IMG/VR virus record: IMGVR_UViG_3300007541_000310
Location: 1-20,563 of that record
Source: a virus
Reading direction: 5' to 3' (one strand)
Length of the DNA: 20,563 bases
Shown here in pieces: positions 884-18,080 of the stretch (the stretch's first letter is position 1; every line of letters begins with the position of its first letter). A program made the translations under genes and the position numbers. The notes beneath the pieces are model-generated. The model did no database searches, had not been told where the DNA came from, and worked only from the letters and a program-made list of their open reading frames with translations.

Positions 884-893
884 ATATTTATAA
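884..893. promoter_or_regulatory. ATATTTATA intergenic motif, copy 1
   Basis: ATATTTATAA occupies most of the 17-nt gap between the partial first gene and the 122-aa gene, ending 3 nt before its ATG. It is one of four exact copies of ATATTTATA, all intergenic. The opposite strand reads TATAAATAT, which contains the T4 late promoter core TATAAATA. The function is inferred: a phage promoter element or an RNA-level signal. Confidence 0.5.
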
Positions 894-896
894 CAT

Positions 897-1265
897 ATGA
901 AAACGCAAGACTTCAAAAAAATCATTAAAGAAGCAGTTAAAGAAGCCATCCAAGAGGAACTAAAAGACATCCTTTTGGAGGCAGTTCGTTCACCCAAAGC
1001 ACCAATCCAGGAAGCTTACAAAATGCATCCTGTAACTATTGATACTCCTACAACTCAACCTGCAATGTCAGCTGAGCAAAAAAGAGCAATGTACGACAAT
1101 GTTCTCAATGGTATGAGATCAAATGGTGGTAACATTAATATGACAACTGCTGATTTAAATACTTTCCAGGTTCAACCAGGTATTAGCACTGTGGGTGAAG
1201 GAAGTGCTCTTCCAGGCGGTAATGTTGGTTTAGACCAAATAATGAGTTTAATGAAAGGTAAATAA
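897..1265 (+). CDS. Small protein with N-terminal charged helix, unknown function
   Basis: This 122-aa protein has no family I can name. Residues 1-30 form a strongly charged amphipathic helix (FKKIIKEAVKEAIQEELKD) with several [IVL]-x-E-A contexts: IKEA 10-13, VKEA 14-17, LLEA 26-29 and IQEA 37-40. The middle is low in structure-forming residues and rich in Thr, Asn, Gln and Met. The C-terminus ends with a short GNVGLDQIMSLMKGK segment. The start ATG lies 3 nt after the ATATTTATAA motif, and the stop codon overlaps the gp25 start by one base (TAATG). This makes it the first gene of the baseplate transcription unit and probably co-translated with gp25. A structural or assembly role in the baseplate is inferred from position alone. 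Confidence 0.8.
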   Translation: MKTQDFKKIIKEAVKEAIQEELKDILLEAVRSPKAPIQEAYKMHPVTIDTPTTQPAMSAEQKRAMYDNVLNGMRSNGGNINMTTADLNTFQVQPGISTVGEGSALPGGNVGLDQIMSLMKGK

Positions 1266-1672
1266 TGGCTTTTGGTGCTCAAAAAATATACCCCATTGAT
1301 ACTAAACCGTCTGTAGCGGTTGGTATTGCTTTTCCTTTTGATGTACCGGGTGTATTTAGACAAACTTATTACACCAAAGACGCTGTAAGATATAATTTGT
1401 TAAATTATTTTTTAACAGATCCCCCTGAAAGATACTTAAACCCAAATTTCGGAGCAGGTTTACGTTCTTTTATCTTTGAACAGATATCTAATCAGAATTT
1501 AGATGGTTTAAAAGAAACTATTGGAACTCAGTTAAGAGAATTCTTTCCTAATGTTATAGTGAAAGAACTTAATATATTCTCTATACCAGATCAAAACCAA
1601 ATCACAGTAACATTAAAATATTCAGTACTTGATACTAATATTTCAGATCAAATTGAATTAGTATTCGCATAA
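1265..1672 (+). CDS. 25: Baseplate wedge protein gp25-like (GpW/gp25 family)
   Basis: This protein is a homologue of T4 gp25, the small wedge subunit that bridges the inner baseplate and the sheath in contractile tails. The length of 135 aa matches the family (T4 gp25 is about 132 aa). The family signature is visible: a conserved helix with YNLLNYFLTDPPERYLNPNFG followed within a few residues by GLRSFIFEQI, where the Pro/Glu/Arg and Asn-x-x-x-Gly positions are characteristic. It ends in an amphipathic beta-strand pair (NQITVTLKYSVLD). Its start overlaps the stop of the preceding gene by one base, and its own stop overlaps the gp6 start by one base, so translation is probably coupled. The adjacent gp6 homologue strongly supports the call; gp25 followed by gp6 is the usual order in contractile phages. 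Confidence 0.93.
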   Translation: MAFGAQKIYPIDTKPSVAVGIAFPFDVPGVFRQTYYTKDAVRYNLLNYFLTDPPERYLNPNFGAGLRSFIFEQISNQNLDGLKETIGTQLREFFPNVIVKELNIFSIPDQNQITVTLKYSVLDTNISDQIELVFA

Positions 1673-3531
1673 TGGCAGTAAGACGTAACATACAATATAT
1701 TAATAGGGATTTTACCGAATTAAGAGCGAGTTTAATTAACTACGCTCGCACTTATTTCCCTACTACTTACAATGATTTTACTCCAACATCACCAGGTATG
1801 ATGTTTATGGAGATGGCTGCCTATGTAGGAGACATTTTATCATTTTATCTTGATAATCAAATTCAAGAAACATATTTACAATATGCTCGCCAAACAAATA
1901 ATTTGTTTGACTTAGCTTATATGTTTGGTTACAAACCTAATGTTACTTCTGCAGCTAGTGTAGATTTAAGTTTTTATCAACAGGTTCCTGCCGTCTCTGG
2001 TAGTGATGGTTATCAACCTGATTTTAATTACTCCCTCTACATACCAGCCAATTCAACATTCTTATCATCAGCTTCAGGAAGTGTAAGCTTCTTAATTGAA
2101 GATCCTGTTGATTTTAGTGTTTCTTCCTCAGGTGACCCTACAGAGGTTACTGTTTTTGCACAATCTGGAAATGCAATTCAATATTTCCTTCTTAAAAAGG
2201 TTAGAAAAGCTATTTCAGCTACAATAAACACAACAACATTTTCGTTTGGAAATCCCGAACAATTTTCTACAGTTCAAATTAGTGCAAATAATATTATTGG
2301 AATTTTAGATGCTTTTGATACTGATGGAAATCAATGGTATGAAGTAGATTATTTGGCTCAAGACGCAATATTTGATTCCATAAAGAATACAAATACAAAC
2401 GACCCAAACCTATCTCAGTATTCAGGAGATACTCCTTTCCTACTTCAATTAAAACAAGTTCAGCGTAGATTCGCCACTCGTTTTTTAAATGATACAACTC
2501 TTCAGATCCAGTTCGGCTCTGGTACAAATTCTGATACAGATGAAGAAATTTTACCTAACCCTGATAACGTAGGTTTAGGTTTACCTTTTGAAGTTGATAA
2601 GCTTACAACAGCATTTTCTCCTTCAAACTTTATCTTTACTAAAAATTACGGCATCGCACCTAATAATACTACAATCACAATGAGGTATTTAACTGGAGGT
2701 GGTGTTTCTGCTAATGTTCCTCAAAATACGATCAATACGCTTACTACAGGAAACGTACAATTTTTGAATTCAAATCTTGATCCTGTTACAGCACAATCTA
2801 TTTTTACTTCATTAGCTATCAACAACCAAGTAGCAGCAGATGGTGGTGGAGACGGAGATTCAGATGAAGAAATTCGCCAAAATGCTTCGGCAAACTACGC
2901 AACACAATTGCGAAATGTAACCCAAAATGACTATTTAGTTAGAGCTTTATCTCTACCAGCAAGGTATGGTGTTATTTCTAAAGCTTATATAGAACCGACA
3001 AAAGCTCAAAGCGCGCAGTCCGGTGCAGCTGCATCGATCCTTGATTTATACGTTTTATCTTTTGATGAAAACAGCAAATTAAGAAAGGCCTCACCCGCTT
3101 TAAAACAAAATCTGTCTACTTACCTATCTCAATATAGAATGGTAAACGATAGTTTAAATATCAAAGATGCTTTTATTATAAACATTGGTGTCAATTTTGA
3201 TATCATTGTTTTACCTAACTACAATAGTAATGAAGTTCTTACTAAGTGTATTTTAGCTTTAAGAGAATTTTTTGCTATTAAGAATTGGCAAATCAACGAA
3301 CCTATTGTTTTAAGAGATTTATATATTCTCTTGGATCTTGTAGAGGGAGTACAAACTGTAAAAAATATCACTATAAGCAATAAGGTAGGTACAAATTTAG
3401 GATATTCTGAATATGCTTATGATGTAACAGGTGCTACTTTATCTAATGTTGTATATCCCTCTTTAGACCCAATGATTTTTGAAGTAAAATATCCAGATAC
3501 CGATATTCAAGGTAGAGTAGTATCATTATAA
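1672..3531 (+). CDS. 6: Baseplate wedge protein gp6-like (baseplate J family)
   Basis: This 619-aa protein matches T4 gp6 (660 aa), the wedge protein that forms the ring around the baseplate hub. The N-terminus (INRDFTELRASLINYARTYF, then TPTSPGMMFMEMAAYVGDILSFYLDNQIQETYL) is the conserved gp6 opening. An acidic DGGGDGDSDEEIRQNAS stretch near residues 395-412 precedes the typical NYATQLRNVTQNDYLVRALSLP motif of baseplate J-like proteins, in which translocated loops are tested against partners. The C-terminal part (VLRDLYILLDLVEGVQTVKNITI) is also family-typical. The gene shares one base with the gp25 stop and ends 1 nt before the next gene. A key acidic/Gly-rich loop is retained and no truncation is seen. 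Confidence 0.92.
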   Translation: MAVRRNIQYINRDFTELRASLINYARTYFPTTYNDFTPTSPGMMFMEMAAYVGDILSFYLDNQIQETYLQYARQTNNLFDLAYMFGYKPNVTSAASVDLSFYQQVPAVSGSDGYQPDFNYSLYIPANSTFLSSASGSVSFLIEDPVDFSVSSSGDPTEVTVFAQSGNAIQYFLLKKVRKAISATINTTTFSFGNPEQFSTVQISANNIIGILDAFDTDGNQWYEVDYLAQDAIFDSIKNTNTNDPNLSQYSGDTPFLLQLKQVQRRFATRFLNDTTLQIQFGSGTNSDTDEEILPNPDNVGLGLPFEVDKLTTAFSPSNFIFTKNYGIAPNNTTITMRYLTGGGVSANVPQNTINTLTTGNVQFLNSNLDPVTAQSIFTSLAINNQVAADGGGDGDSDEEIRQNASANYATQLRNVTQNDYLVRALSLPARYGVISKAYIEPTKAQSAQSGAAASILDLYVLSFDENSKLRKASPALKQNLSTYLSQYRMVNDSLNIKDAFIINIGVNFDIIVLPNYNSNEVLTKCILALREFFAIKNWQINEPIVLRDLYILLDLVEGVQTVKNITISNKVGTNLGYSEYAYDVTGATLSNVVYPSLDPMIFEVKYPDTDIQGRVVSL

Positions 3532-3532
3532 A

Positions 3533-4666
3533 ATGGCAGTATATAAAATTTTCCCCGAAAAAGACGCTTCGATCTATTCCCTATTCCCCACAATGAATAC
3601 GGGATTAGATGAAATTCTTGACATTACAAATTTAAACTTTGCTATCAGTAGTAGTGCTCAAGTAGCAAGATTTTTAATCAAATTTGAGGAAAGTCAAATT
3701 AATAGCACTTTAAGCAATCTTGTTGGGAATAGCGAATGGACTGCCGCCTTAAAATTATATATTGCAACAGCTCAAAGTATAAACTTAGATTACTATCTTG
3801 AAGTATTCCCAGTTTACGGATCTTGGGGAATGGGTACTGGAAAATATTTAGATAGCCCTATTTCTACTAATGGTGTAAGTTGGAAATACCAAAATTATGC
3901 TAATGGAAATAGCTGGCCTACTGCAAGCTGGATTACAATTCCTTATGTTTCAATGTCCTACCAAAACAACAACAAAGGTGGTGGGGCTTGGTATACTGGA
4001 TCTTCTACAGGACTTTCATTCCCTATTACACAAAGTTTTAATTACAGAAGTGATAAAGACTTAAATGTAGATGTAAAAGATATTGTCACTGCTTGGAGCT
4101 CTTCTGAAATTGCTAACGAGGGATTCCTTATAAAATGGGAAGATAGTATTGAATGGAATTCTGCTAAAGCGGTACAACCTGTTTTACAATATTATAGTGT
4201 TGATACAAACACAATTTATCCTCCTGTTTTAGAATTTAAATGGGATGATAGCATTTGGAATACAGGATCAACAACTACTACAGTTGTCACAACTGACAAT
4301 CTTTATGTTTCTATTCCTGAAAACCAAGGATTCTTCTATAGTGAAAGTGTTCAACGCTTTAGAGTAAACTGCAGACCAAAATACCCAGAAATTGTATTCC
4401 AAACTGCATCACTCTACACAACAAACTACTACTTACCTTCTGGTTCAGCTTGGTATGCTGTTAAAGATTTAGACACAAATGAATACGTAATTGAATTTGA
4501 CGAAAAATACACTCAAATGAGTGCTGACGACATTTCAAATTACTTCTTCTTATATATGAATGGTCTTCAACCTGAAAGATATTACACAATCCTTATCAAA
4601 TATGCGATTAGTGGTTCAGTTTTTGTTCAAGATAGCAATTACAACTTTAAAGTTATTAACGGATAA
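3533..4666 (+). CDS. Tail/baseplate protein with DNRLRE-like domain
   Basis: This 377-aa protein has an N-terminal beta-rich region that resembles DNRLRE-type domains. It opens with YKIFPEKDASIYSLFPTMNT and continues with an N-T-G-L-D-E segment, then a strand-rich core containing FNYRSDKDLNVDVKDIVTAW and GFLIKWEDS around residues 165-210, the segment usually written as DVTxxVxxW in such domains. The remainder is beta-rich and aromatic, with a C-terminal part (YYLPSGSAWYAVKDLDTNEY) that looks like a separate immunoglobulin-like or accessory domain. It sits in the gp6-gp7 neighbourhood and starts 1 nt after the gp6 stop, so a baseplate-periphery role is likely. DNRLRE domains occur in extracellular proteins and phage structural proteins. 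The domain assignment comes from motif memory; I cannot run a profile search. Confidence 0.75.
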   Translation: MAVYKIFPEKDASIYSLFPTMNTGLDEILDITNLNFAISSSAQVARFLIKFEESQINSTLSNLVGNSEWTAALKLYIATAQSINLDYYLEVFPVYGSWGMGTGKYLDSPISTNGVSWKYQNYANGNSWPTASWITIPYVSMSYQNNNKGGGAWYTGSSTGLSFPITQSFNYRSDKDLNVDVKDIVTAWSSSEIANEGFLIKWEDSIEWNSAKAVQPVLQYYSVDTNTIYPPVLEFKWDDSIWNTGSTTTTVVTTDNLYVSIPENQGFFYSESVQRFRVNCRPKYPEIVFQTASLYTTNYYLPSGSAWYAVKDLDTNEYVIEFDEKYTQMSADDISNYFFLYMNGLQPERYYTILIKYAISGSVFVQDSNYNFKVING

Positions 4667-5028
4667 TGGCTCAAGAGGTAAATTTACAAAAACAAGTATA
4701 TGATAAAAATCAATACCAAAAGGTTATTGATAACTCATTTACCCAGTTAGGTGTAACTAACCCTACATCTACTACAGTTGCTCCCTTACCATCTGTTGAT
4801 CAATTTTTTCAGTATTATTCCCAATTGTTCTTTGATATTCCTAAATTCGGTGCAACCAATTCTCACGAATATTTAATTAAAACAAGTCAAGACTATATAG
4901 GAACTACTAATGTAGTAAATGAAGAAATTCAAGCATTAATTGCAGAGTTAACAGCTCTTAGACAAGATAACTTGGATTTACAACAAAGTTTATTAGATTT
5001 GGTAAGCGCGAATCAGAACAATGGCTAA
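4666..5028 (+). CDS. Small tail/baseplate protein with C-terminal coiled coil
   Basis: The 120-aa product has a polar N-terminus, a central aromatic motif (VDQFFQYYSQLFFDIPKFG followed by HEYLIKTSQDYI) and a C-terminal heptad-like helix from about residue 83 (EEIQALIAELTALRQDNLDL), which predicts an oligomerising coiled coil. I do not know a characterised homologue. The gene is wedged between the DNRLRE-like protein (one-base overlap) and the very large tail protein (8-nt overlap), so it is almost certainly translated with them and belongs to the same substructure. A connector or chaperone-like role for the large neighbour is possible but is only inferred from size, coiled coil and position. 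Confidence 0.8.
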   Translation: MAQEVNLQKQVYDKNQYQKVIDNSFTQLGVTNPTSTTVAPLPSVDQFFQYYSQLFFDIPKFGATNSHEYLIKTSQDYIGTTNVVNEEIQALIAELTALRQDNLDLQQSLLDLVSANQNNG

Positions 5029-8000
5029 TAGTATTACATTAACTTCAATTGACCCTCAAACATTTGAGCTTCAGAACTATTCTCCTTCGGATAATAATCT
5101 GATTACCAATTTTACTATTGATTCCTCATTTAATCCTGAAACAGATTATATTTCATATTTTATCTATAATTTAAATGGATTTATAGAAGGATTTAGAGAA
5201 AATTATCGAGGGTATACAATACAAAATCAGGCCCTATTTGTTTATCCTGAAAAGGATGTAGTTGCATCATCTCTTCAAATAGGAGAATACAATATTGTCT
5301 ATTATTTCCTCCAAAATCAGGCAAATAGTAGCCCAGATGCTCAATATTTCATCAGTGAAATTTCTTCTGATAGAACTGAACTTAGATTAAGTTCAACTGA
5401 AATCTCAGATGCTTTACTTTTACAAGGGGGTGCTGATCTAATCTTAAAACAAACCAATTCACAAGGAGTATTTTTAGATTTTTATCTAAATTTTGGTTTA
5501 GACAGCTTCATTATTGCCAATAATCTTTTAATTGACAATACAGATCCTACTAACCCAACACTTTTAGTTAAATTATACGAGGCACTTCCTGAGGAGTTTG
5601 GAATTAATAATACTTGTTACTTTGTTACAGAAGTTGCTGATCCTATTGGTTACAACGTAGATATTCAAGATGATTTTTCTGATCTATTTGTAAATCCTCA
5701 ACTTTCCGGTCCTAATTTCAATTTGAATATTAAGGATCAAATTAACAATAGTACTCCTTACACAAATTATCAAACCTTAACCTCACAATCTTATGCTGTA
5801 GGTTCTGGAAGTTTGCAGTACCAAGTTAATAGTATTTTAGCTGAAAGAGGTATTGAAATCAACGTAGATTATTCTAACTACTCTAATTTCATTTATTTCT
5901 CTTCAGCTCAAACCCGATTAGAAAACTTTTATTATAAGTTAAGCTTAATTGAAGAATATCAATACAGCGCTTCTCTAACAGATAATACGGGTTCTGGATT
6001 TGTCTCTAGCTCACAAAACCTTTGGAATTCTAAGATAGATGAAATCATAACCACATTCGATGGTTACGATTACTATCTTTACTACAATTCAGGATCCACA
6101 GCTTGGCCTAAAGTTAACTCTCAATATCCCTACATCAATGCCTCAACAGCAAATCCTGGTGCAGGATATACTTGGTTCTTAAGCCAATCAGCAGTTGCTA
6201 CTACATTTGATGAAGCTAACAATAATGCTTTAATCAATGCTATTCCGGGCTACTTAAGAGAAGATACTGACAATGCTGATTTTGAGCTATTTGTAGAGAT
6301 GTTAGGCGAAATGTTTGATAACATTTGGCTTTACTATCAAGATGTAACAGAAAAATGGAATGCAGATAACCGCTTACAATATGGTGTTTCTAAAGAAATT
6401 GTTGCTGATATTTTAAGAGACCTTGGTCTAAAAATTTACCAAAGCAATTTCTCATCAACAGATCTTTACCTAGCATTTTTAGGTGTCACTCCAGAAGGCA
6501 ATCAATTCCCCTTCCCTTATATTACAGGTTCATACCCCGTACCTACAGGCTACGAATATATTGATACTAAAATCTCAGCATCAAATGAGGTTGTTCCTTT
6601 AGAAGATGTTCAAAAATCCTTCTATAAGAGATTATTCCACAACTTACCTTTCTTACTTAAGAAAAAAGGTACAACAACTGGATTACAAAGTCTTTTAACA
6701 ACTTATGGTGTTCCTGATACTATTTTAAGAGTAGCGGAATTCGGAGGTAAAGATAAAATTGAAACTAACGATTGGGATTACTGGCAGCATAAGTACAATT
6801 TAGCACATTTAGCTGCAGATGCTAATCACTATATTGCAACAGATTTTGCCCTTAATTCAAGTTGGACAACACAATATACAACAAATCGTCCTGAAACTAT
6901 ATCCTTTAGATTTAAAACTATTGGATTAGATTATGCTTTAGCAAACAACGTACAAAACTTATTTATTGCTACAGATGGTGGAGATTCAAGTTATATTAAT
7001 CTTGTTTATCCTAGCTCATCCCTAACATCTGGATCATACTCAGGTTCAATTCCAAACCCATACGACCAAAAGTATGCATACCTAAATTTCATCCCAGATG
7101 CCGCAAACCCTAGTGTTTCTGCCAGTATTTATTTACCTTTCTTAGATGAAGGTTGGTGGTCGGTTGCTCTTACATATACTGGAAGCGACATATTCACATT
7201 ATATGCTGCTAACAACATTTACGATGGCGATGATGGTTCAACAATTGGTTTTATTGGATCTGCTTCAGTAGTAGGTGATGAAGCTATTTGGAATGTACTT
7301 GACCAAGCTTATTTTATAAGCAATGCTGGTTCAAGTTTCCCAAATGGTGGTACTTTCTTCTCGGGTAGTTTACAAGAAATTAGATACTACTCGAACCCAA
7401 TAGATGTGCGTAGTTTCAAGGATTTTGTAATGAATCCTGATTCTATTAAAACCGATGGTTTAAATGGTGCTTCAAATTACTTAGCTTTTAGAGCTGCTTT
7501 AGGTGGTGAACTTTATACAGGTTCAGTTTCAATCCACCCAAAAGTTACTGGATCTTGGATTACAACCTCTTCATTTAATAGCGATAGTAACTTTACTATT
7601 AATACTGAAAATTGGGTTTCTAATTACGAATACCTTTTCTTAAATCAACCTGCGGTTGGTATTAGAAATATTATTTCAAACAAGATTCAAGTAGTTGAAC
7701 CTAACCTTCCAGCAGGTAATACTTTATCTCAATATATTTCAGTACAACAAAAAAGTACAGGTAGTTTATACACAGAAAACTCAACTTATACTGAGATAGC
7801 TTTTTCTCCACAAAACGAAATCAATGACGACATTATGGGTCAACTTGGTTTCTTTAATATGGGAGACTACATAGGTGATCCAAGACAAAGATTCGATCGC
7901 TTAGACTACTACCCTGATCTTGATAGAATTAGAAACAACTATTTCGAAAAATATCAGTCAAACTATAATATTTTTGAGTACATCAACTTGATCAAATATT

Positions 8001-9151
8001 TTGACAATTCATTGTTCAAAATGATCAAAGATTTTACTCCTGCTCGCAGTAGTCTTGCTTCAGGTGTTGTTGTTAAACAAACAATTTTAGAAAGAAGCAA
8101 ATACCCAGAACCTTTAGTTGCAGTTTCTCAATCAGAATTTACAGGTTCTATTGATACTGCCTTTATTGAAGGTGGCCCTGGAGGTTCAACCCCTATTTTA
8201 GCAAATGGAGGTATTACCAAAGTAGAAGTACTTGATGGTGGTTTTGGTTACACAGGTAGTGCAAGTACCTATCCTATTTCAATTATTGGAGGTGGAGGTC
8301 AAGGTGCTGTTTTAACACCTAATATCACTTTAGGAGGTGTACTATCAGTTGGTACTATTCTGACACCCTATATTATACAAAATTCGTACGATGTTCCAAA
8401 TGGAAATAATACAATATTAGGATATTTAGAAGATGGTGTCTCTTACTCATTTAACTACTCTGCTTCAAGTAATACAATTACTTTTATTGAAGCTCGGCAA
8501 ACATTTTCACCCTATTACGATTTAGAAAAAATAACATTTAAAGCAGGTGATCTTGGTAGTACTACTGATGTTATAGTACAAGCACCTTATACAATACTAA
8601 GTTCAATTAGTGACGGGTATATCTCTTCAGTCCAAATCAACAACCCAGGTAAAGATTTCACATCATTCCCAACTCTTTCAATTACAGGGACAACGGGTTC
8701 AGATGCAATTTTAGAAGTTACAGAGTTAGATAATTCTATTGTAACTCAAACTTGGTATGGTAATAATGTTACTCCTTATGGTTTAGTACCATTTACACAA
8801 TCTACAGCTGTTGAATTTTATAATGGAGAATATAGTGGATCTTTAATCAACGTAGATAATGGAGGTGAGCTAAACTTAGCAAACCCCGTTAAACAAGTTA
8901 GTACTATTCCTCTCTCTTATTATTCTACAGGATCTGCTACAGCTATAAACCCCTCTCCTGGTCAATTCTTTTGGAGAGCTGAACAATATGCTGTTGGAGG
9001 AGGAATATCACCAGATGGTCCAGCTGGTTTAAAATATATGTATATTAACGAAACCGATGCTAATGGGGTTAATATTCTTCAAGCTTTGCAAAATTTAAAT
9101 CCTGGAGATACAATGACATTTACAATAGTATACGATCAAACTGTTTCTTAA
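5021..9151 (+). CDS. Very large baseplate/tail protein, gp7-like position, with LamG-like region
   Basis: This 1376-aa protein is the largest in the window and occupies the place of T4 gp7 (about 1030 aa). Residues about 1-400 are beta-rich. Residues 405-560 contain a wedge-like segment (PGYLREDTDNADFELFVEML, then ILRDLGLKIYQ and LPFLLKKKGTTTGLQSLLTT) of the kind seen in P2 gpI and large wedge proteins. Residues about 590-810 look like a concanavalin A/LamG fold (IATDFALNSSW, TISFRFKT, EGWWSVALTYTGS, GSLQEIRYY), a possible glycan-binding module. Residues 960-1040 return to a conserved helical segment (FFNMGDYIGDPRQRFDRLDY, then YINLIKYFDNSLFKMIKDF). Two GxGYT-type glycine-rich repeats follow near 1062-1113 and 1203-1233. 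It overlaps the preceding gene by 8 nt. The gp7 equivalence is inferred from size and order. Confidence 0.82.
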   Translation: MANSITLTSIDPQTFELQNYSPSDNNLITNFTIDSSFNPETDYISYFIYNLNGFIEGFRENYRGYTIQNQALFVYPEKDVVASSLQIGEYNIVYYFLQNQANSSPDAQYFISEISSDRTELRLSSTEISDALLLQGGADLILKQTNSQGVFLDFYLNFGLDSFIIANNLLIDNTDPTNPTLLVKLYEALPEEFGINNTCYFVTEVADPIGYNVDIQDDFSDLFVNPQLSGPNFNLNIKDQINNSTPYTNYQTLTSQSYAVGSGSLQYQVNSILAERGIEINVDYSNYSNFIYFSSAQTRLENFYYKLSLIEEYQYSASLTDNTGSGFVSSSQNLWNSKIDEIITTFDGYDYYLYYNSGSTAWPKVNSQYPYINASTANPGAGYTWFLSQSAVATTFDEANNNALINAIPGYLREDTDNADFELFVEMLGEMFDNIWLYYQDVTEKWNADNRLQYGVSKEIVADILRDLGLKIYQSNFSSTDLYLAFLGVTPEGNQFPFPYITGSYPVPTGYEYIDTKISASNEVVPLEDVQKSFYKRLFHNLPFLLKKKGTTTGLQSLLTTYGVPDTILRVAEFGGKDKIETNDWDYWQHKYNLAHLAADANHYIATDFALNSSWTTQYTTNRPETISFRFKTIGLDYALANNVQNLFIATDGGDSSYINLVYPSSSLTSGSYSGSIPNPYDQKYAYLNFIPDAANPSVSASIYLPFLDEGWWSVALTYTGSDIFTLYAANNIYDGDDGSTIGFIGSASVVGDEAIWNVLDQAYFISNAGSSFPNGGTFFSGSLQEIRYYSNPIDVRSFKDFVMNPDSIKTDGLNGASNYLAFRAALGGELYTGSVSIHPKVTGSWITTSSFNSDSNFTINTENWVSNYEYLFLNQPAVGIRNIISNKIQVVEPNLPAGNTLSQYISVQQKSTGSLYTENSTYTEIAFSPQNEINDDIMGQLGFFNMGDYIGDPRQRFDRLDYYPDLDRIRNNYFEKYQSNYNIFEYINLIKYFDNSLFKMIKDFTPARSSLASGVVVKQTILERSKYPEPLVAVSQSEFTGSIDTAFIEGGPGGSTPILANGGITKVEVLDGGFGYTGSASTYPISIIGGGGQGAVLTPNITLGGVLSVGTILTPYIIQNSYDVPNGNNTILGYLEDGVSYSFNYSASSNTITFIEARQTFSPYYDLEKITFKAGDLGSTTDVIVQAPYTILSSISDGYISSVQINNPGKDFTSFPTLSITGTTGSDAILEVTELDNSIVTQTWYGNNVTPYGLVPFTQSTAVEFYNGEYSGSLINVDNGGELNLANPVKQVSTIPLSYYSTGSATAINPSPGQFFWRAEQYAVGGGISPDGPAGLKYMYINETDANGVNILQALQNLNPGDTMTFTIVYDQTVS

Positions 9152-9154
9152 AAA

Positions 9155-10657: not shown

Positions 10658-10658
10658 T

Positions 10659-10668
10659 ATATTTATAA
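10659..10668. promoter_or_regulatory. ATATTTATA intergenic motif, copy 2
   Basis: ATATTTATAA lies in the 30-nt gap between the 500-aa and 219-aa tail genes, 19 nt before the ATG at 10688. This is the only copy with enough room downstream for a transcription start and a short leader. A 12-bp perfect palindrome follows it. The role is inferred from its exclusive intergenic placement. Confidence 0.5.
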
Positions 10669-10670
10669 CA

Positions 10671-10682
10671 AAATACGTATTT
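10671..10682. repeat. 12-bp perfect palindrome AAATACGTATTT
   Basis: The inverted repeat has no loop and is centred on ACGT. It lies between motif copy 2 and the 219-aa gene start. It could be a small operator-like site or a restriction/modification target; it lacks a following T-run, so it is not a standard terminator. Confidence 0.4.
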
Positions 10683-10687
10683 AAAAA

Positions 10688-11347
10688 ATGGGATATTTAA
10701 ATAATTCAGTAGTAACAGTTGATGCTATCTTAACCGATAAAGGTAGAGAGTTACTCGCTAAAAACGACGGAACATTCCGCATCACTCAATTTGCTTTGTC
10801 TGATGACGAGATAGATTATACTCTTTATAATCCTAACAACCCTTCAGGTTCAGCTTACTACGGCCAAGCAATTGACAATATGCCTTTGTTAGAGGCATTT
10901 CCTCTTGTAACTCAAGAAATGAAGTATGTGTTAACTACACTACCTCGTGGAACCTCTAAGATGCCTGTTCTTGATTTAGGATATTCAAATATCACATTAA
11001 AACAAGGTGCTTCACTTGCTGTCACTCCTCAAACATTAAACTATATTGGTGGTACAACTACATACGAAACCAATGGTTATACTGCTACTATAAGTGATGT
11101 AAGAACATTAAGCACATTTAACGGGGTAGGTATTAATACTCCCGAAGCCGTTGCTCTAAACAGCACTACAACAGTAGGAACTAACGTTTCTAAAACAGTA
11201 GTAGGTACTACAATTAACCTAACTGCAACAACAGTTAATACTCTATTTGGTTCAAATACAATCTTACAAGCAACTCTTACAGTAGTAGGTAGAGATTCAG
11301 GAGCTAGATTGACTATCCCAGTAACTATTACTAAAACTTCTAATTAA
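10688..11347 (+). CDS. Structural tail protein with LTDKGRELLA N-terminus
   Basis: The 219-aa product begins with a motif found in many phage structural proteins: MGYLNNSVVTVDAILTDKGR followed by ELLAKNDGTFRITQFALSDDEIDYTLYN (residues 1-48). An aromatic, Pro/Gly-containing link follows (GQAIDNMPLLEAFPLVTQEM), then a long Thr/Ser/Val-rich beta segment to the C-terminus that resembles an Ig-like or bacterial adhesin domain (TISDVRTLSTFNGVG, TLTVVGRDSGARLTIPVTI). It is the first gene after motif copy 2. The next gene starts 5 nt after its stop. A fibre, spike or decorating protein of the tail is the most likely identity, based on composition and neighbours; no enzymatic motif is visible. Confidence 0.78.
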   Translation: MGYLNNSVVTVDAILTDKGRELLAKNDGTFRITQFALSDDEIDYTLYNPNNPSGSAYYGQAIDNMPLLEAFPLVTQEMKYVLTTLPRGTSKMPVLDLGYSNITLKQGASLAVTPQTLNYIGGTTTYETNGYTATISDVRTLSTFNGVGINTPEAVALNSTTTVGTNVSKTVVGTTINLTATTVNTLFGSNTILQATLTVVGRDSGARLTIPVTITKTSN

Positions 11348-11352
11348 TAGAT

Positions 11353-12387
11353 ATGTCGTTTAAAAGATTTACCCCTTCAGATTTTTTAGTATCAGCTGAT
11401 TCTGTTACTTCTCCTTGCTGGGCTAACAATGTTAATACTTTAACATCATTTCCTACTTCTTCTACTCAAGAGGCAAGTTCACAAGGTGACTATGTTTTAG
11501 CAGTTTACAATACTGTAGCAACCTATGATTCTGCTTCAATTCAATTCTACATTGGATATTGTGATGCAAATGGTTCAGGTTCAACTGCCTATAATACTGC
11601 AATCCCTAGTTTAAGTCCTTCAAGAACACTTTACGGTCAATATAGAAACCTTATTCTTGAAGATGAGAATTCAGGATTTATTTTTGGTGATGTAACTAGT
11701 TCTCAATTCTTTGCTATCTCAGTTGAAAGATCAAGTTACAAGCAATCTTTGATGCCTGGTACTTTGAATCTTAAACTAACTAATGGCGCGGCAAATGTAT
11801 ACCTTACTGATAATAGTAATGATGTTTCAGTTGTTCCTTACATTAATGGTACAAGAGTTTACCAGTTAATCTCGGGTTCAAATGGAACCAATAGTGGTAC
11901 TACACCAACAGGAGCTTCTGCAGCCGGTTATACAGCTTCAGGTTCTTATGGTTGGTTTGTGCCTGATATGGGAACTATTCTTTTAAATGCCAAAGCATTA
12001 CAACTCCCAGCAACTGCAGGTGGTATTGCCTTAGCTCCTTCAACAGGTAGCTCAAACGTAGCTAATGGTTTAAACAATACAATTATGTATAGAACCATTA
12101 ATTCTGGAGCAAGCTTCCAATTACTTTCTCAGGAAAATGTTACTTCAGATTATGTGTTTGTAAGACCACAAAACGCTGAATTCAATTATACAACTAACCC
12201 ATCATTTATCTCGGGTTCAACCGGTGAAGTTATTTATCCAACTTTCATCAACAATCCTCAAACCTATATTACAACAGTAGGTTTATACAATGATGCAAAC
12301 GAATTGTTAGCTGTAGCTAAACTTTCTAGACCACTTGTTAAAGACTTCACTAAAGAAGCTTTAATTCGCGTTAAGCTAGACTTCTAA
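11353..12387 (+). CDS. Tail structural protein, paralogue A of a tandem pair
   Basis: This 344-aa, Ser/Thr/Asn/Gly-rich protein opens MSFKRFTPSDFLVSADSVTS and runs through a beta-rich body. A low-complexity linker (SGSNGTNSGTTPTGASAAG, about 174-192) is followed by an aromatic segment SYGWFVPDMGTILLNAKAL. The C-terminal module carries AEFNYTTNPS (275-284) and TTVGLYNDANELLAVAKLS (307-325), and ends in VKLDF. The same C-terminal module occurs in the next gene, so the pair likely attaches to the same partner with different N-terminal domains. A tail-fibre or baseplate-appendage role is inferred. It starts 5 nt after the 219-aa gene and has no Shine-Dalgarno site. Confidence 0.78.
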   Translation: MSFKRFTPSDFLVSADSVTSPCWANNVNTLTSFPTSSTQEASSQGDYVLAVYNTVATYDSASIQFYIGYCDANGSGSTAYNTAIPSLSPSRTLYGQYRNLILEDENSGFIFGDVTSSQFFAISVERSSYKQSLMPGTLNLKLTNGAANVYLTDNSNDVSVVPYINGTRVYQLISGSNGTNSGTTPTGASAAGYTASGSYGWFVPDMGTILLNAKALQLPATAGGIALAPSTGSSNVANGLNNTIMYRTINSGASFQLLSQENVTSDYVFVRPQNAEFNYTTNPSFISGSTGEVIYPTFINNPQTYITTVGLYNDANELLAVAKLSRPLVKDFTKEALIRVKLDF

Positions 12388-12390
12388 TGA

Positions 12391-13380
12391 ATGAGTGCTT
12401 GGAAACAATTTTTATCAAGTGATATAATTGTTAACCCGTTTGTGGTTAACAAAGGTTTTACTTTTCCTTATACAAGCTTTTACACTGAATCTAGTGGGCA
12501 ATATGTTGGAATAGATCGATTCCTTGGAAAAAATACTCCTTGGGATGTGGCTATAGGTCAAAATGCTACAACAGGTGAAAATCAAGTTGAATACGAAGCT
12601 CTTGTTTACAGAAATGTAAAGCAACTTTACTACTCAAACTTTATATCCTCAAGCACTGGTGATAACGTTAACCAAAGAATCTTAATCCCTGGATTTAACA
12701 CTTCAGGTAATGCTTTTATAGGATCCAAAACGAACCCAGCATTTGATAATTTTCTCCAAAGCACTTTAACACCTAATAGATATTTTCCTACTGCCTCTAA
12801 CGCTGAAGTAGCAGTTATATCAATTCCTTCTAAAATTTATGGAGAATATATAGCTCCTAATAGTTTTATTTTATCTTACCCAAGTCTAAATTCAACCATT
12901 ACAGACGATGGTGAAGGTAATCTAAACATCTCAGGTAGTGCTGTGGGTGAAGGGTATATAGGTAATATAATTTACACACAGGGTATTGCAATTTTAACAT
13001 CTAATACTCAACCCGATATTGCAGGTTATAATTTAAATGACTATGTAACTGATACAGATGTTACTTGTTCATTTACATCTGCAATGACTATTTGGGAAAC
13101 CCAATACAAATGTACTCTTAGAGAAAGCGAATTTAATTGTACTTTAAATCCTTCTGCTCAAACAAGCGGATCTTTTTATAGTTTTAGTGGTAGTCAATTC
13201 TACCAGCCATTTGATGGCACTTTAGCAGATAATGTGACAGGTTCATATTTTGCTCCTTACGTAACAACAGTTGGTCTATATGATGAGATGCAAAATCTCT
13301 TAGCAGTAGGTAAACTATCTCAACCTTTACCCACATCAGCTACAACCGACACAACTATTTTAGTTAACTTAGACTTCTAA
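12391..13380 (+). CDS. Tail structural protein, paralogue B of a tandem pair
   Basis: This 329-aa protein starts MSAWKQFLSSDIIVNPFVVN, comparable to the MSFKRFTPSDFLVSADSVTS opening of the preceding gene. Its C-terminus repeats the shared module: SEFNCTLNPS (246-255), TTVGLYDEMQNLLAVGKLS (292-310) and a final NLDF. The central part differs from paralogue A (LYYSNFISSSTGDNVNQRIL, YIGNIIYTQGIAIL). Three Cys residues cluster just before the module (CSFTSAM, YKCTLRE, FNCTLN), unlike the Cys-poor neighbours, which could mean a metal or disulfide site. The preceding stop is a tandem TAA TGA, with the ATG directly after it. Domain duplication and divergence is the best explanation of the pair; the receptor or partner is unknown. 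Confidence 0.78.
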   Translation: MSAWKQFLSSDIIVNPFVVNKGFTFPYTSFYTESSGQYVGIDRFLGKNTPWDVAIGQNATTGENQVEYEALVYRNVKQLYYSNFISSSTGDNVNQRILIPGFNTSGNAFIGSKTNPAFDNFLQSTLTPNRYFPTASNAEVAVISIPSKIYGEYIAPNSFILSYPSLNSTITDDGEGNLNISGSAVGEGYIGNIIYTQGIAILTSNTQPDIAGYNLNDYVTDTDVTCSFTSAMTIWETQYKCTLRESEFNCTLNPSAQTSGSFYSFSGSQFYQPFDGTLADNVTGSYFAPYVTTVGLYDEMQNLLAVGKLSQPLPTSATTDTTILVNLDF

Positions 13381-13383
13381 AAA

Positions 13384-13824
13384 ATGTGGAAATTTAATGG
13401 TGAAGAAATCACTGACATCGATCAGTTCCCATCTGGTACCTTTGGTTTTGTATATAGGGTACTTAACAAAGAAACTGGCAAGGCGTATATTGGTAAAAAA
13501 GTGTTGTACCACAGCACAAAAAAGAAATTAACCAAAAAAGAACTTACAGAGATAGAAGGACAAGGTCGTAGACCATCTTTCCGTCTTGTTGTAAAAGAAT
13601 CAGATTGGAAATCTTATTGGGGTTCTAACAAACTTCTTAAAGAAGAATTACAAGCTAACAAAGACAATTTTGAACGCTCAATTATATGTTTAGCTAAAGA
13701 TAAAAAACAGCTAACATACTTTGAAACCAAATATCTATTTATCTATTCAGTACTTGAAAAACCAGAGGAGTTCTATAACGATAATATTTTAGGAAAATTC
13801 TTTACAAAAGATTTGGCTTCTTAA
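13384..13824 (+). CDS. GIY-YIG nuclease-like protein
   Basis: The 146-aa product has the core of a GIY-YIG nuclease: GFVYRVLNKETGKAYIGKK at residues 21-39, where FVY replaces the usual GIY and AYIG supplies the second half. It continues with DWKSYWGSNKLLKEEL (74-89) and a candidate catalytic Glu in YFETKYLF (E114). Related small proteins occur widely in T4-like phages, either as Seg-type homing endonucleases or as resident nucleases of unclear role. There is no separate DNA-binding module, and it does not interrupt another gene, so a free-standing nuclease used in DNA processing is as likely as a homing enzyme. It begins 3 nt after the tail paralogue and is therefore transcribed with structural genes, yet sits beside the replication genes. 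Activity is not certain because the first motif is divergent. Confidence 0.75.
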   Translation: MWKFNGEEITDIDQFPSGTFGFVYRVLNKETGKAYIGKKVLYHSTKKKLTKKELTEIEGQGRRPSFRLVVKESDWKSYWGSNKLLKEELQANKDNFERSIICLAKDKKQLTYFETKYLFIYSVLEKPEEFYNDNILGKFFTKDLAS

Positions 13825-13836
13825 AAGATTTTTCGT

Positions 13837-13847
13837 ATATTCTATAA
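13837..13847. promoter_or_regulatory. Variant intergenic motif ATATTCTATAA before the primase
   Basis: The 23-nt gap before the primase contains ATATTCTATAA, which is the ATATTTATAA motif with one inserted C. It directly abuts the GTG start. Upstream is a T-run and TCG (GATTTTTCG), which could form another promoter element. It may be a motif variant or a promoter of a different class for replication genes. Confidence 0.35.
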
Positions 13848-14780
13848 GTGGTTAATCAACTCCTTGTAGCACTTGTCAATTCTGTCTTAGGATCAGGAAA
13901 ACCGACTGCAAGAGGTAACCAAGCCCACACCTGTCCATTCTGCCACCATCACAAACCTAAACTAGAGATAAATTTTAGTGAAGGGAATGGAGATAAAAAC
14001 CCGTGGCATTGTTGGGTGTGTGGGAAAAAAGGAGTAAAGCTTATCACCCTATTTAAACAAATTGGGGCTTCTGAAGATAAACTAAACGAACTACGCAGTT
14101 TAGTAAAATCTTCTTATAAAGATGAGCAAATCCAAACCCAAGAAGCAATTAAACTCCCAGACGAGTTTAAACCTCTATCTGAAATTACCGAAAAAGATAT
14201 TATAGGAAGACACGCTCTTATATATCTTAAAAAACGCGGTATTGCCAAAGCAGATATTCTTAGGTACAACATAGGGTATTGTGAAGGAGGAAAATACGAT
14301 AAAATGATAATTGTTCCTTCATACGATGAGTTTGGGAAACTTAACTACTTTGTAGCTAGAAACTTTAACCCAAACTCTCCAGTAAAATACAAAAACCCGC
14401 CTATTGGCAAGAACATTATACCATTTGAGCTGTTTATAAATTGGTCTTCACCGCTTATATTATGCGAAGGACCATTTGACGCAATCTCTATCAAACGTAA
14501 TGCAATCCCGCTTTTAGGAAAACATATACAACCAAACCTGATGAAGCGCATTGTAACTTCTCAAGTTGAAAAAGTATATATTGCGTTAGATAAAGACGCT
14601 CAAAAAGATGCTTTAAAATTTGCTGAACTACTCTTGGCGGAGGGAAAAGAAGTTTATATCGTTGATATGGACGAGAAAGATCCAAATGAAATGGGTTTTG
14701 GACATTTTACAAAACTTATTCAAGAAACATACCCAATTAATATCTTTGACCTGATGTCAAGGAAGATTTCACTAATATGA
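13848..14780 (+). CDS. DNA primase, T4 gp61-like (zinc finger plus TOPRIM)
   Basis: This protein synthesises RNA primers for lagging-strand replication, acting with the replicative helicase. The 310-aa length is close to T4 gp61 (342 aa). Residues 29-58 form a zinc-binding site with C29-P-F-C32 and C55-W-V-C58, the DNA-reading finger of DnaG-type primases. A TOPRIM domain spans about 200-285: the catalytic Glu is in LILCEGPFD (E207), the DxD is in ALDKDA (D248, D250), and a further acidic DPNE lies at 278-281. The start is GTG at 13848 because an in-frame TAA lies immediately upstream and no ATG occurs before the zinc finger. The stop overlaps the next gene start as ATGA, so the nuclease downstream is translationally coupled. 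No helicase fusion is present. Confidence 0.9.
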   Translation: MVNQLLVALVNSVLGSGKPTARGNQAHTCPFCHHHKPKLEINFSEGNGDKNPWHCWVCGKKGVKLITLFKQIGASEDKLNELRSLVKSSYKDEQIQTQEAIKLPDEFKPLSEITEKDIIGRHALIYLKKRGIAKADILRYNIGYCEGGKYDKMIIVPSYDEFGKLNYFVARNFNPNSPVKYKNPPIGKNIIPFELFINWSSPLILCEGPFDAISIKRNAIPLLGKHIQPNLMKRIVTSQVEKVYIALDKDAQKDALKFAELLLAEGKEVYIVDMDEKDPNEMGFGHFTKLIQETYPINIFDLMSRKISLI

Positions 14781-15565
14781 TAGATAAAGGAACTAAAATT
14801 TATAAAAAAAGCGTTACAAGAATTCTTGAAGTAGACCAAGATGCAAAGCAGGTAAATTTTTTAGATACACGTTTTTACAGAAAAGGAGAAGAATACTATC
14901 CTTCAATCACCTCAGTTTTACAATACTTCCCTAAAAACAAATTCTTTGAGAACTGGCTTAAAGATGTTGGTCATAATTCGGAAGTTATAGTTCGCAAAGC
15001 AGCAGATGAGGGAACACAAGTCCACGAAGCTATTGAAGCTTATTTAGAGGGAAAACAAATTTCGTGGTTAAACGAATTCGGTCAAGCCAACTATTCTTTA
15101 GATGTTTGGAAAAATATCTTGAAATTTGATGAGTTTTGGAAGCAAGTTAAACCAACCCTCATCGAAAGTGAAATCCACCTATTCTCAGATGAAGCTAAAA
15201 TTGCAGGAACTTGTGACCTGGTTTTAGAGATTAATGGTGAAATGTGGATTTTGGATATCAAAACCTCAAATAGTCTTCATACAAGCCAAGATCTTCAAAT
15301 TGCCGCTTACGCTAAAATGTGGAATGAAAGCTTTGAAGAGAAAGTTAAGCGCACAGGTATCCTTTGGCTTAAATCATCTAAAAGAGGACCAGACAAATCA
15401 GGGAAGAAAATTCAAGGCAAAGGTTGGGAAATTTACGAATCAGATCGCTCAATAGAGGAAAACTGGAAGTACTTCGAAAACATTCTTGAACTATATCACC
15501 TTGAAAATCCAAATGCTAAACCCGCATTTGAAAGTTTCCCCTTAACAATTCAATTAGAGGGTTGA
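14777..15565 (+). CDS. PD-(D/E)XK exonuclease, RecB/Cas4-like
   Basis: This 262-aa nuclease probably processes DNA ends during phage replication or recombination. The motifs of the RecB/Cas4 branch are in order: YPSITSVLQYFP (41-52), a helix with GTQVHEAIEAYLEG (79-92, H83/E84), AGTCDLVLEINGEMWILDIKT (143-163, giving D147, D160 and K162 of the D-x(n)-D-x-K core), and the QxxxY motif at Q174-Y178 (LQIAAYA). No Cys cluster for an iron-sulfur site is seen, unlike many Cas4 proteins. It overlaps the primase stop by 4 nt (ATGA) and ends at the third ATATTTATA motif, so primase and nuclease form a two-gene unit. Its role could be equivalent to the T4 gp46/47-type or lambda exo-type processing step; that link is inferred. 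Confidence 0.88.
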   Translation: MIDKGTKIYKKSVTRILEVDQDAKQVNFLDTRFYRKGEEYYPSITSVLQYFPKNKFFENWLKDVGHNSEVIVRKAADEGTQVHEAIEAYLEGKQISWLNEFGQANYSLDVWKNILKFDEFWKQVKPTLIESEIHLFSDEAKIAGTCDLVLEINGEMWILDIKTSNSLHTSQDLQIAAYAKMWNESFEEKVKRTGILWLKSSKRGPDKSGKKIQGKGWEIYESDRSIEENWKYFENILELYHLENPNAKPAFESFPLTIQLEG

Positions 15566-15573
15566 TATTTATA
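15565..15573. promoter_or_regulatory. ATATTTATA intergenic motif, copy 3
   Basis: GATATTTATAC starts just before the end of the nuclease gene (the motif's first A is the last base of its TGA stop) and precedes the kinase ATG at 15589 by 15 nt. A 10-bp palindrome lies between. It marks the border between the replication pair and the kinase/metalloprotease group. Confidence 0.5.
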
Positions 15574-15576
15574 CGC

Positions 15577-15586
15577 AAACGCGTTT
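15577..15586. repeat. 10-bp perfect palindrome AAACGCGTTT
   Basis: This loop-free inverted repeat is centred on CGCG and located 3 nt after motif copy 3 and 2 nt before the kinase start. It parallels the palindrome that follows motif copy 2. It is not followed by a T-run. Confidence 0.4.
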
Positions 15587-15588
15587 AA

Positions 15589-16392
15589 ATGATCAGTCTT
15601 GTTCAATTACTGGAAGAACTCTCCTCTAGACCCAAAGCCATAATTTTTGCTGGCTCACCGGGTGCTGGAAAGAGTTCTTTTGTAAAAGATGCTATCGAAG
15701 AATTTAATATGAAAGTATTAAATGTTGACGATTACTATAAAGAAAATATGAGACAAGCTGGTCAATCTCTTGATGTTAAAAATGCTAGTAGAGAAGGTAG
15801 AAGTAAATCATCTTCAGCTATGCAGAAAGCTATTAAGAGCTACCAAAGTGCATTGACTCAAGCTATGAACAACGATGAAAACATAGTTTTAGATGCCACT
15901 TCAGGATCCTTAAAAAAGACTGCTGAATTAAGAAATGAACTTAATATGGCAGGTTATGATGTAATGATGATTTATGTGCATTCTTCACTTAAAAAAGCTC
16001 TCAAAAGAAATGATAGACGTTTTGAAAAAACTCAAGGACAGGAGCGTAGCTTACCTCCAGATGTGGTTGTTAAGACTTGGGCAAATGTCACAAGAAATTA
16101 CAACCAATATAGAAACATATTTGGTGACGATTTTGTGTCTGTTGTAAATGACGAAAAACCATTTACACTTTCATCTTACGATGATATAAAAAAGATATAT
16201 TTGGATCCTTACCAACCCAAAGATTCTCTACCAACATCACCACAAGATCAAGCATATCAAGATAAAATTGAAGCTGAAAATAGAGCTTATGTAGATGACT
16301 TTATTTCAAAAAGAAAAGCCCAAGATATCATAGACAACTCTGTATCTAAAGAGGATGTTAAAGTTAAAGTAAAACAATTCCTATCCAAATGA
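15589..16392 (+). CDS. Zeta-toxin-like P-loop kinase
   Basis: This 267-aa protein has a full nucleotide kinase core of the zeta-toxin/polynucleotide-kinase type. The Walker A loop is GSPGAGKSS (22-30), preceded by the hydrophobic strand AIIFA. An acidic NVDDYY (45-50) sits where zeta toxins and related kinases bind substrate. NIVLDATSG (98-106) matches the second strand with its acidic residue, and a basic lid region follows (LKRNDRR, 138-144). Zeta proteins phosphorylate UDP-GlcNAc, but the substrate here cannot be read from sequence. The C-terminal 70 residues are charged and probably an extra helical tail. No epsilon-type antitoxin gene is next to it. It overlaps the metalloprotease gene by 4 nt (ATGA), so the two are co-expressed. 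Alternatives include an RNA/DNA end kinase. Confidence 0.82.
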   Translation: MISLVQLLEELSSRPKAIIFAGSPGAGKSSFVKDAIEEFNMKVLNVDDYYKENMRQAGQSLDVKNASREGRSKSSSAMQKAIKSYQSALTQAMNNDENIVLDATSGSLKKTAELRNELNMAGYDVMMIYVHSSLKKALKRNDRRFEKTQGQERSLPPDVVVKTWANVTRNYNQYRNIFGDDFVSVVNDEKPFTLSSYDDIKKIYLDPYQPKDSLPTSPQDQAYQDKIEAENRAYVDDFISKRKAQDIIDNSVSKEDVKVKVKQFLSK

Positions 16393-17489
16393 GCGATAAA
16401 ATCCCAGGTGGTTTAGCAAAAGGTATGAGTTTAGCAGATATTGCTAAACATCATAAAGTTCCTCTCAAATCGTTAAAAGCAAAACTTGAGCAGGGTATTA
16501 AAGTTGAAATGGAGCACACTACAGATAAAGCTGTTGCTCGCGAAATTGCTATGGATCACATTTTTGAAGATCCAAACTACTACACTAAGCTAAAAACAAT
16601 TGAAAAGGAAGCAGTAGAAGAGCAACCTGTTGAAGAGAAAAAAGATCCGTACGCAATCTCTGCTTATGCTCTTGAACTTCAAAAAGGATTAGAAGAACAT
16701 TTACTTGAATCAATGATTAAAGATAATATGTTCCGCTCAGACTATATAGACTTTAATCGTTTAGAAAGAGAATTAGACTTTATCTTTGATGATTTGGGGA
16801 TAGACATTAACTTAACTCAACATTTCAAGGATAGAGTAATGCAAAGACGAGTGGATAAAAGAGATATTATGGATTTAATGTCTAAAGTTCACGACAAATA
16901 TTCTCAAGAAGTTCGTTTCTTAAAAAGAGACGACAATAGAGTATTTAGACATTTAACTCGTTTGCTTGATATTGCTTCTGTAGCTGGTGGAATTGATAGC
17001 GATGGTTATAAGGATTTATTCCTTAAAACTATCTTAAAAAGAAATGATCCAAGCGAACCACCTCTTCGTACAAATTACACTTCTCCAGTCTTATCAGTAA
17101 ATGAAGAGAAATCATCTTATAAAAATTTCATTCCTGAAATAAACAAATTTATGGCGGCTAATGGGATGAATGTTGAACCATTCCCTTCAGTAAAATTCAT
17201 AGAGGATGATGAAGAAAATGCTAATGATCCCTTAGGTACTACAGCATACTATGATCCCGCCAATAAAATGGTTGTTTTATATACTATGAAACGCCATCCA
17301 AAAGATATTTTACGTAGCTATGCTCACGAAATGGTCCACCACGAGCAAAATTTAAATAATATTATAGGCAAGGGAGAAATACAAACAACAAACACTCTTG
17401 AAGATGATTTTTTAGATAAAATCGAGAGAGATGCTTACGAAAAAGGAAACATTATGTTTCGCAATTGGACAGATAGTTTAAAAAAATAG
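16389..17489 (+). CDS. Three-part protein: DUF5661-like, HFxxR domain, HExxH metalloprotease
   Basis: The 366-aa product has three visible parts. Residues 5-70 match a small phage domain like DUF5661 (PGGLAKGMSLADIAKHHKVP, then GIKVEMEHTTDKAVAREIAM and EDPNYYTKL), possibly a helical DNA- or protein-binding unit. Residues 120-220 form a second phage-type module with HFKDRVMQRR (145-154) and FLKTILKRND (211-220). Residues 245-366 are a zinc metalloprotease-like domain: SYAHEMVHHEQN carries HExxH at 313-317, and E346 in IERDAY is a candidate third zinc ligand. The linker before it contains SVNEEKSS (236-243), and LLES lies at 105-108. It starts inside the end of the kinase gene. Targets are unknown; virion maturation or host-protein cleavage are both possible. 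The fold is inferred from motifs only. Confidence 0.8.
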   Translation: MSDKIPGGLAKGMSLADIAKHHKVPLKSLKAKLEQGIKVEMEHTTDKAVAREIAMDHIFEDPNYYTKLKTIEKEAVEEQPVEEKKDPYAISAYALELQKGLEEHLLESMIKDNMFRSDYIDFNRLERELDFIFDDLGIDINLTQHFKDRVMQRRVDKRDIMDLMSKVHDKYSQEVRFLKRDDNRVFRHLTRLLDIASVAGGIDSDGYKDLFLKTILKRNDPSEPPLRTNYTSPVLSVNEEKSSYKNFIPEINKFMAANGMNVEPFPSVKFIEDDEENANDPLGTTAYYDPANKMVVLYTMKRHPKDILRSYAHEMVHHEQNLNNIIGKGEIQTTNTLEDDFLDKIERDAYEKGNIMFRNWTDSLKK

Positions 17490-17492
17490 TTT

Positions 17493-18071
17493 ATGAAAGA
17501 AAATGTTCTGAAAAAACAATTCGTTGAAAAAGACGTTCAACGCTTAAGAAATTTAGTACAAGGAAAATATGCAGATAAATCCCAAATATCAGTCGGTTTT
17601 ACAAAAGAAGCCAATAAAGTATACAACGAAGGTGATGTATGGGAAGCCGATGGGCGTACGTGGACTATTAAGGATGGCATTAAACAAAATGTCACGAAAT
17701 TGGACAAAGCTAAAGAAGCGATTGTCTTACCTTTATTTTGTCCTAACTGCAAAAAAATGATGAAACCAAGGTTGGATAAAAAATGGTTCCAACTTTATAA
17801 ACATTGTTTTGATTGCCAAATTGATTTTGAAACCACTCTCAGAACTTCAGGTCAGTGGGAAACCTATCTTAAAGAGATAAATAATCAGGGCATTGATGGT
17901 CTTATCAAAGACTTTGAAGTCTGGATGGAAGAAGAAATCAAATATAAAGATAACGAATCTTACATTACAGAAGCCGGTGACGTAGAAAAATGGTCTTCAA
18001 CAAATGTAAATTTACTTCTTAAACAGAAAGAAGATACTATTAAATTTCTGCAAAGTCTAAAAAAAGACTAA
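17493..18071 (+). CDS. Conserved T4-like phage protein with zinc ribbon
   Basis: This 192-aa protein carries a four-Cys zinc ribbon: FCPNCKKMMKPRLDKKWF (82-99, C83 and C86) and HCFDCQIDFE (104-113, C105 and C108). The N-terminal part contains GDVWEADGRTWTIKDGIKQN (47-66), a small beta-rich unit, and the C-terminal part is helical and acidic (LIKDFEVWMEEEIKY). The C-terminus holds SYITEAGDVEKW, with an I-T-E-A context at 158-161, and ends in a lysine-rich helix. I recall proteins of this layout from other T4-like phages but no function is known to me. It starts 3 nt after the metalloprotease stop, is part of the same unit, and ends at motif copy 4. A nucleic-acid-binding or virion-scaffold role would be a guess. 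Confidence 0.8.
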   Translation: MKENVLKKQFVEKDVQRLRNLVQGKYADKSQISVGFTKEANKVYNEGDVWEADGRTWTIKDGIKQNVTKLDKAKEAIVLPLFCPNCKKMMKPRLDKKWFQLYKHCFDCQIDFETTLRTSGQWETYLKEINNQGIDGLIKDFEVWMEEEIKYKDNESYITEAGDVEKWSSTNVNLLLKQKEDTIKFLQSLKKD

Positions 18072-18080
18072 TATTTATAA
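18071..18080. promoter_or_regulatory. ATATTTATA intergenic motif, copy 4
   Basis: ATATTTATAA begins at the last base of the zinc-ribbon stop codon. The nearest possible starts are GTG at 18092 (11 nt on) and ATG at 18216 (135 nt on). If the small ORF is not real, this copy is followed by the longest untranslated leader in the window. Confidence 0.5.

Follow-up and report, generated by a model that had tools for sequence, protein, structure and literature searches.

The nine-letter word ATATTTATA is, with a probability of roughly 80%, a late promoter of a large and mostly uncultured group of T4-like phages that includes Flavobacterium phage immuto, and it is probably read by a phage-encoded sigma factor. 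We infer the promoter function, the late timing and the reading by a sigma-like protein from genome comparisons. According to this model, early genes would be transcribed from a host-type promoter, TTG-N20-TATATTTAG. After early expression, a phage sigma factor of the immuto gp118 type would probably take over the host RNA polymerase and direct it to the word at virion and other late operons.

The starting point was a 20.6 kb IMG/VR fragment (20,563 nt, called the window here), which has all its genes on the + strand. These encode T4-type baseplate proteins (gp25-like), a GIY-YIG endonuclease, a primase, an exonuclease and a P-loop kinase. The protein encoded at 16389-17489 contains a DUF5661 domain and also gave a weak match, below the curated cut-off, to the T4 endoribonuclease RegB. 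At the protein level the nearest cultured relatives are the Flavobacterium phage immuto records (44–47% identity for two window genes), followed by Microcystis phage Mel-JY01, and Rhodothermus phage RM378 matched a part of one window gene.

Four copies of the word are located on the + strand of the window, all of them in intergenic gaps, exactly where the first-pass annotation had placed them. The copy at 884..892 is separated by 4 nt from the start (ATG at 897) of a conserved gene of the baseplate operon, and it is kept in seven of eight distinct upstream regions of relatives, the eighth carrying ATATTTATT. The copy at 10659..10667 precedes the ATG at 10688 of an ortholog of immuto gp107 by 20 nt, and 49 of 57 distinct upstream regions retain it despite changes of the flanks and of the spacing. 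The copy at 15565..15573 is found 15 nt ahead of the ATG (15589) of a gene for a P-loop kinase/zeta-toxin-like AAA protein and is kept in 22 of 24 distinct upstream regions. The last copy, at 18071..18079, lies 12 nt before a small ORF with a GTG start (18092-18325) and is present in both relatives that could be aligned to this ORF. As had been described before, the copies at 15565 and 18071 each share one base with the upstream stop codon. The small ORF overlaps the next ORF (18216); its GTG start is kept in one relative (78% identity), whereas another seems to have an ATG start.

It had also been stated that no copy on the + strand lies within a gene. A fifth exact copy had been overlooked, which is situated on the minus strand at 369..377 within the first ORF. 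Because of this copy, TATAAATA does occur on the + strand, at 369, although it had been reported to be absent from the gene strand. The minus-strand copy is probably due to chance, as reverse-sense copies in genes of relatives occur at background level. Both strands of the window together thus contain five copies, compared to a mean of 0.96 in dinucleotide-preserving shuffles, and none of 100 shuffles reached five. The gaps of the window comprise just 131 bases, in which no second 9-mer is found four times. Nine-base positions with at least eight gap bases number 83 of about 20,560, and only 12 of 293 all-A/T 9-mers are placed in gaps to this extent, so the location of all four + strand copies in gaps has a p value of about 3e-6 against the AT-matched background.

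For a wider comparison, 12 related genomes were used, i.e. 11 IMG/VR contigs and the genome of immuto. They were oriented with the genes on the + strand, ORFs were called mechanically (ATG only), and the 9-mers in the gaps were ranked by strand asymmetry. ATATTTATA ranked first, with 196 copies on the coding strand and 7 in reverse orientation, the sites being not fully independent because the 12 genomes are related to each other. A third-order Markov model of the gaps predicted about 17 copies, and thus the observed number represents an 11-fold excess. The strand ratios in whole contigs include 20:2, 23:1, 26:2, 30:0, and 23:0. At loci that were fetched with two window proteins, the word is mostly intergenic and is found on the gene strand, a few to about 25 nt before the start codon. 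The gaps are AT-rich and the window contains just four + strand copies, which would be compatible with a mere chance product of base composition. This explanation has a negligible probability and is refuted by the 196:7 asymmetry, by the 11-fold excess over the Markov model in 12 genomes, and by the retention of the word while flanks and spacing change. The word is also present, though infrequently, within genes of the 12 genomes, where its strand bias is slight (31 versus 17).

The word had been linked to T4 via its reverse complement, TATAAATAT, which includes the T4 late promoter core. This turned out to be a coincidence. The core TATTTATA is found in gaps 267 times on the gene strand and 46 times in the reverse (TATAAATA) sense; the word acts as TATTTATA on the gene strand, and TATAAATA is not enriched there. 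A T4 late box read from the reverse strand was thus rejected as an explanation, because the bias lies on the gene strand.

The 196 sites have a simple anatomy. A conserved upstream (-35-like) partner is absent, and an A-rich stretch follows 3–5 nt past the word. Position 1 tolerates C and position 9 tolerates T as single-base variants, and the consensus is [A/C]TATTTAT[A/T], a single -10-type element that is mostly located 3–35 nt before the start codon. The distances to the start codon are not uniform. A sharp class has 3–4 nt (27 of 196), few sites have 5–9 nt, and a broad class has at least 10 nt, in some cases more than 30 nt. In T4, late transcription begins roughly one helical turn past the box (PMC2988020). 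If this spacing held here, the mRNA would begin at or beside the start codon where the ATG follows the word by 3–4 nt. In Flavobacterium psychrophilum, a member of the host genus, leaderless messages account for 5.5% (PMC9723704).

A position directly ahead of start codons on the gene strand would also be expected for an RNA signal in late 5′ leaders that acts in processing, stability or as a translation aid, and the weakly suggested RegB-like endoribonuclease of the window would fit such a role. We regard this as very unlikely, because the variation of the distance from 3 to more than 30 nt is unlike a translation signal, and because a single AT box with an A-rich downstream region at one gene class only is the anatomy of a T4-type late promoter (PMC2988020).

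A second element was found in the gaps of the 12 genomes, TTG-N20-TATATTTAG, which precedes small early-type genes. It can also be written as TTG-N20-TATATTTAGGTAT, followed by an A-rich leader and AAAGGTTATG, and it resembles the host consensus TTTG/TAnnTTTG (PMC6847099, PMC9723704). In immuto (L134-L136) and its relatives, a strikingly constant leader ending with AAAGGTTATG follows the early promoter before many unrelated small genes. The two classes were named late and early because of the kinds of genes that they precede. In immuto and among orthologs, the word is located before the genes for terminase, portal, tail sheath, tail tube and baseplate hub as well as further structural genes, while in immuto the second element clusters at 60–77 kb before small hypothetical genes. 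The exact word precedes orthologs of gp117 in 10 of 12 cases, tail tube in 8 of 10, tail sheath in 7 of 10, and gp107 in 8 of 12, and the gene set behind the second element is largely different. Both patterns matched at gp107, hub, and gp073; these cases were not read as double promoters, because the pattern for the second class is loose enough to match the late word as well. A C at position 3 of the word stems nearly exclusively from G003, a single genome in which it forms part of the early class. ATCTTTATA was considered as a second late variant, as its ratio in G003 is 38:0, but it has an upstream partner (CCTAG or TTTGG) and was thus assigned to the early class.

The fifth long gap of the window had been proposed to hold a variant of the word with a one-base insertion. 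Instead, it contains a promoter predicted to be of the host type, TTTGGCTTCTTAAAAGATTTTTCGTATATT (TTTGG...TATATT), at 13812..13841 on the + strand before the primase gene, which fits the TTG-N20-TATATT class. The late word was found in none of 73 distinct upstream regions of relatives, which have either a TTTGGCT...TTCGTATCTTA element or a terminator-like AAGCTTGG..CCAAGCTT followed by a T run. In the window (13812-13848) and in relatives (L076, L077, L150, L219), the distance from the first T of the -7 box to the primase start is 12–13 nt, and the primase message may be leaderless. Taken together, the earlier proposal of a phage-wide signal stood in so far as the word is restricted to gaps, is strand-specific, heads groups of genes and very probably acts in transcription; it does not partition the whole genome, but marks one class, mostly virion/late genes.

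Alternatively, the word could be a late or middle promoter that is read by the host primary sigma factor or a modified host holoenzyme. The -7/-10 box of Bacteroidetes primary-sigma promoters (-33 TTTG, -7 TAnnTTTG) is AT-rich like the word, and ATATTTA is common to the early promoters TATATTTAG and the word. However, the word lacks the -33 element that the early class has, and its sequence departs from TAnnTTTG (PMC6847099), whereas the early class and the site at 13812-13841 show an approximate fit to the primary-sigma type. Reading by the host sigma factor is thus unlikely, and a phage-encoded sigma factor remains the preferred reader.

A search for a gp55-type sigma factor, which had been suggested by the first-pass annotation, yielded a candidate in all 12 genomes examined. 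With the T4 gp55 sequence alone as a query, no significant match was obtained. The profile of the gp55 family (phrog_234) and Pfam Sigma70_r2 each weakly indicated candidates of about 240 aa in most genomes; phrog_12791 gave no match. The candidates belong to a single protein family that is present in 12 of 12 genomes and, where checked, adjoins the baseplate late operon. The immuto member is gp118 (78150-78872), which is labelled 'hypothetical protein'. Based on synteny with one of the contigs (G001), the respective gene is expected about 2 kb upstream of the window and thus outside of it. Relatives of the protein were found in at least 600 IMG/VR stretches.

Several results point to a sigma function of this family, albeit weakly. 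Sigma70_r2 matched 9 of 11 members with a best E value of 1.3e-5 (in the genome search the matches stayed under the curated cut-off), and phrog_234 matched 8 of 11 with a best value of 8e-4. A profile-profile comparison with gp55 using hhalign was weak, with a probability of 15%. A conserved stretch, FD..xGxKAxSYFxTIxKRxLI, in our reading resembles sigma region 2.3-2.4. A structure model that was generated with 20 relatives is of moderate confidence (mean pLDDT 73, pTM 0.45). Compared with viral structures, the model is most similar to a phage sigma factor, and sigma factors make up several of the highest-ranking matches, none of which passes an E value of 0.001. A PDB sequence search with the sigma profile gave no match, and a PDB fold search nothing significant. 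In G003 (contig positions 52440-53321, L156 region), the sigma-like copy has about 60 extra amino acids directly before the region 2.3-like motif, which are absent from the other 11. The contig G004 contains three matches above the Sigma70_r2 cut-off, at 4725-4919, 3160-3354 and 166208-166366 (minus), and thus this phage may carry additional sigma factors.

The variants of the word were compared with the sigma clades. One sigma clade goes with A as the first letter of the word, the other with either A or C. In the clade of the window (G001, G002, G003, G009, G010, G011) and in G004, CTATTTATA is absent from the gaps or unbiased. The immuto group uses both ATATTTATA and CTATTTATA, with ratios of 13:1 and 13:1 in G008 and 15:1 and 11:1 in immuto. 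A further set of 80 loci with the sigma gene and its surroundings gave a ratio of 77:0 for CTATTTATA. G004, which has a divergent sigma protein, prefers ATATTTATT (27:1). This covariation fits a recognition of the word by the sigma-like protein, but it is not an independent proof, because the split follows a single phylogenetic division.

More distant relatives gave varying results. Mel-JY01 (PP395634) has a sigma homolog with 39% identity, and the word precedes its genes with a ratio of 8:0. The recorded host of this phage is a cyanobacterium, yet it has the sigma-like protein, the late word, and the baseplate genes (L317-L320) in common with the immuto group. The retention of the word with this recorded host and the tracking of the phage sigma clade by the variants also argue against reading by the host primary sigma factor. 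The uncultured phage LR756508 encodes a sigma homolog with 42% identity, and neither form of the word was found in the 100 kb checked. In RM378, which has an annotated sigma factor, ATATTTATA was not found before genes; a related word, TTATTTAA, is enriched there (22:9), and the RM378 sigma factor could not be aligned convincingly with the sigma-like family.

The T4 late promoter consists of the box TATAAATA, which is read by gp55 together with gp33 and the sliding clamp gp45; the box of cyanophage S-PM2 is NATAAATA. T4-type late promoters have no -35 element and an AT-rich segment just downstream (PMC2988020). Common to T4 late promoters and the word are a single -10-type AT box upstream of virion genes and a sigma-like phage protein, and the sites of the word share the lack of a -35 element, the AT-rich downstream region, and the position before late (virion) genes. 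However, the word contains neither TATAAATA nor NATAAATA. Unlike the T4 box, it has the core TATTTATA on the gene strand, with A changed to T at two central positions, and the sigma candidate has about 240 aa, compared to 185 aa for T4 gp55, with weak similarity. No member of the T4 clamp family PF02916 was detected above the cut-off in the phage group by a search that is insensitive, as it also misses a cyanophage known by its group to have a clamp. In the open-access literature, no description of an TATTTATA phage promoter or of immuto transcription was found. We tentatively hypothesize that the late box has moved from TATAAATA to [A/C]TATTTAT[A/T] in this abundant, largely uncultured clade, which would run its late programme with a sigma family of its own, with letter preferences of the subclades, a share of leaderless late messages, and possibly without T4-type clamp activation.

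In summary, the word would provide an operon map for a phage clade that is represented by hundreds of metagenome contigs and is almost without functional annotation. A conserved 'hypothetical' gene gains a testable function as a putative late sigma factor, and tests are practical because immuto is a cultured member of the group. The results suggest that T4-like phages do not all share the late box of T4, and such a variability would supply naturally matched sigma and promoter variants for studies of promoter recognition via the -10 element only.
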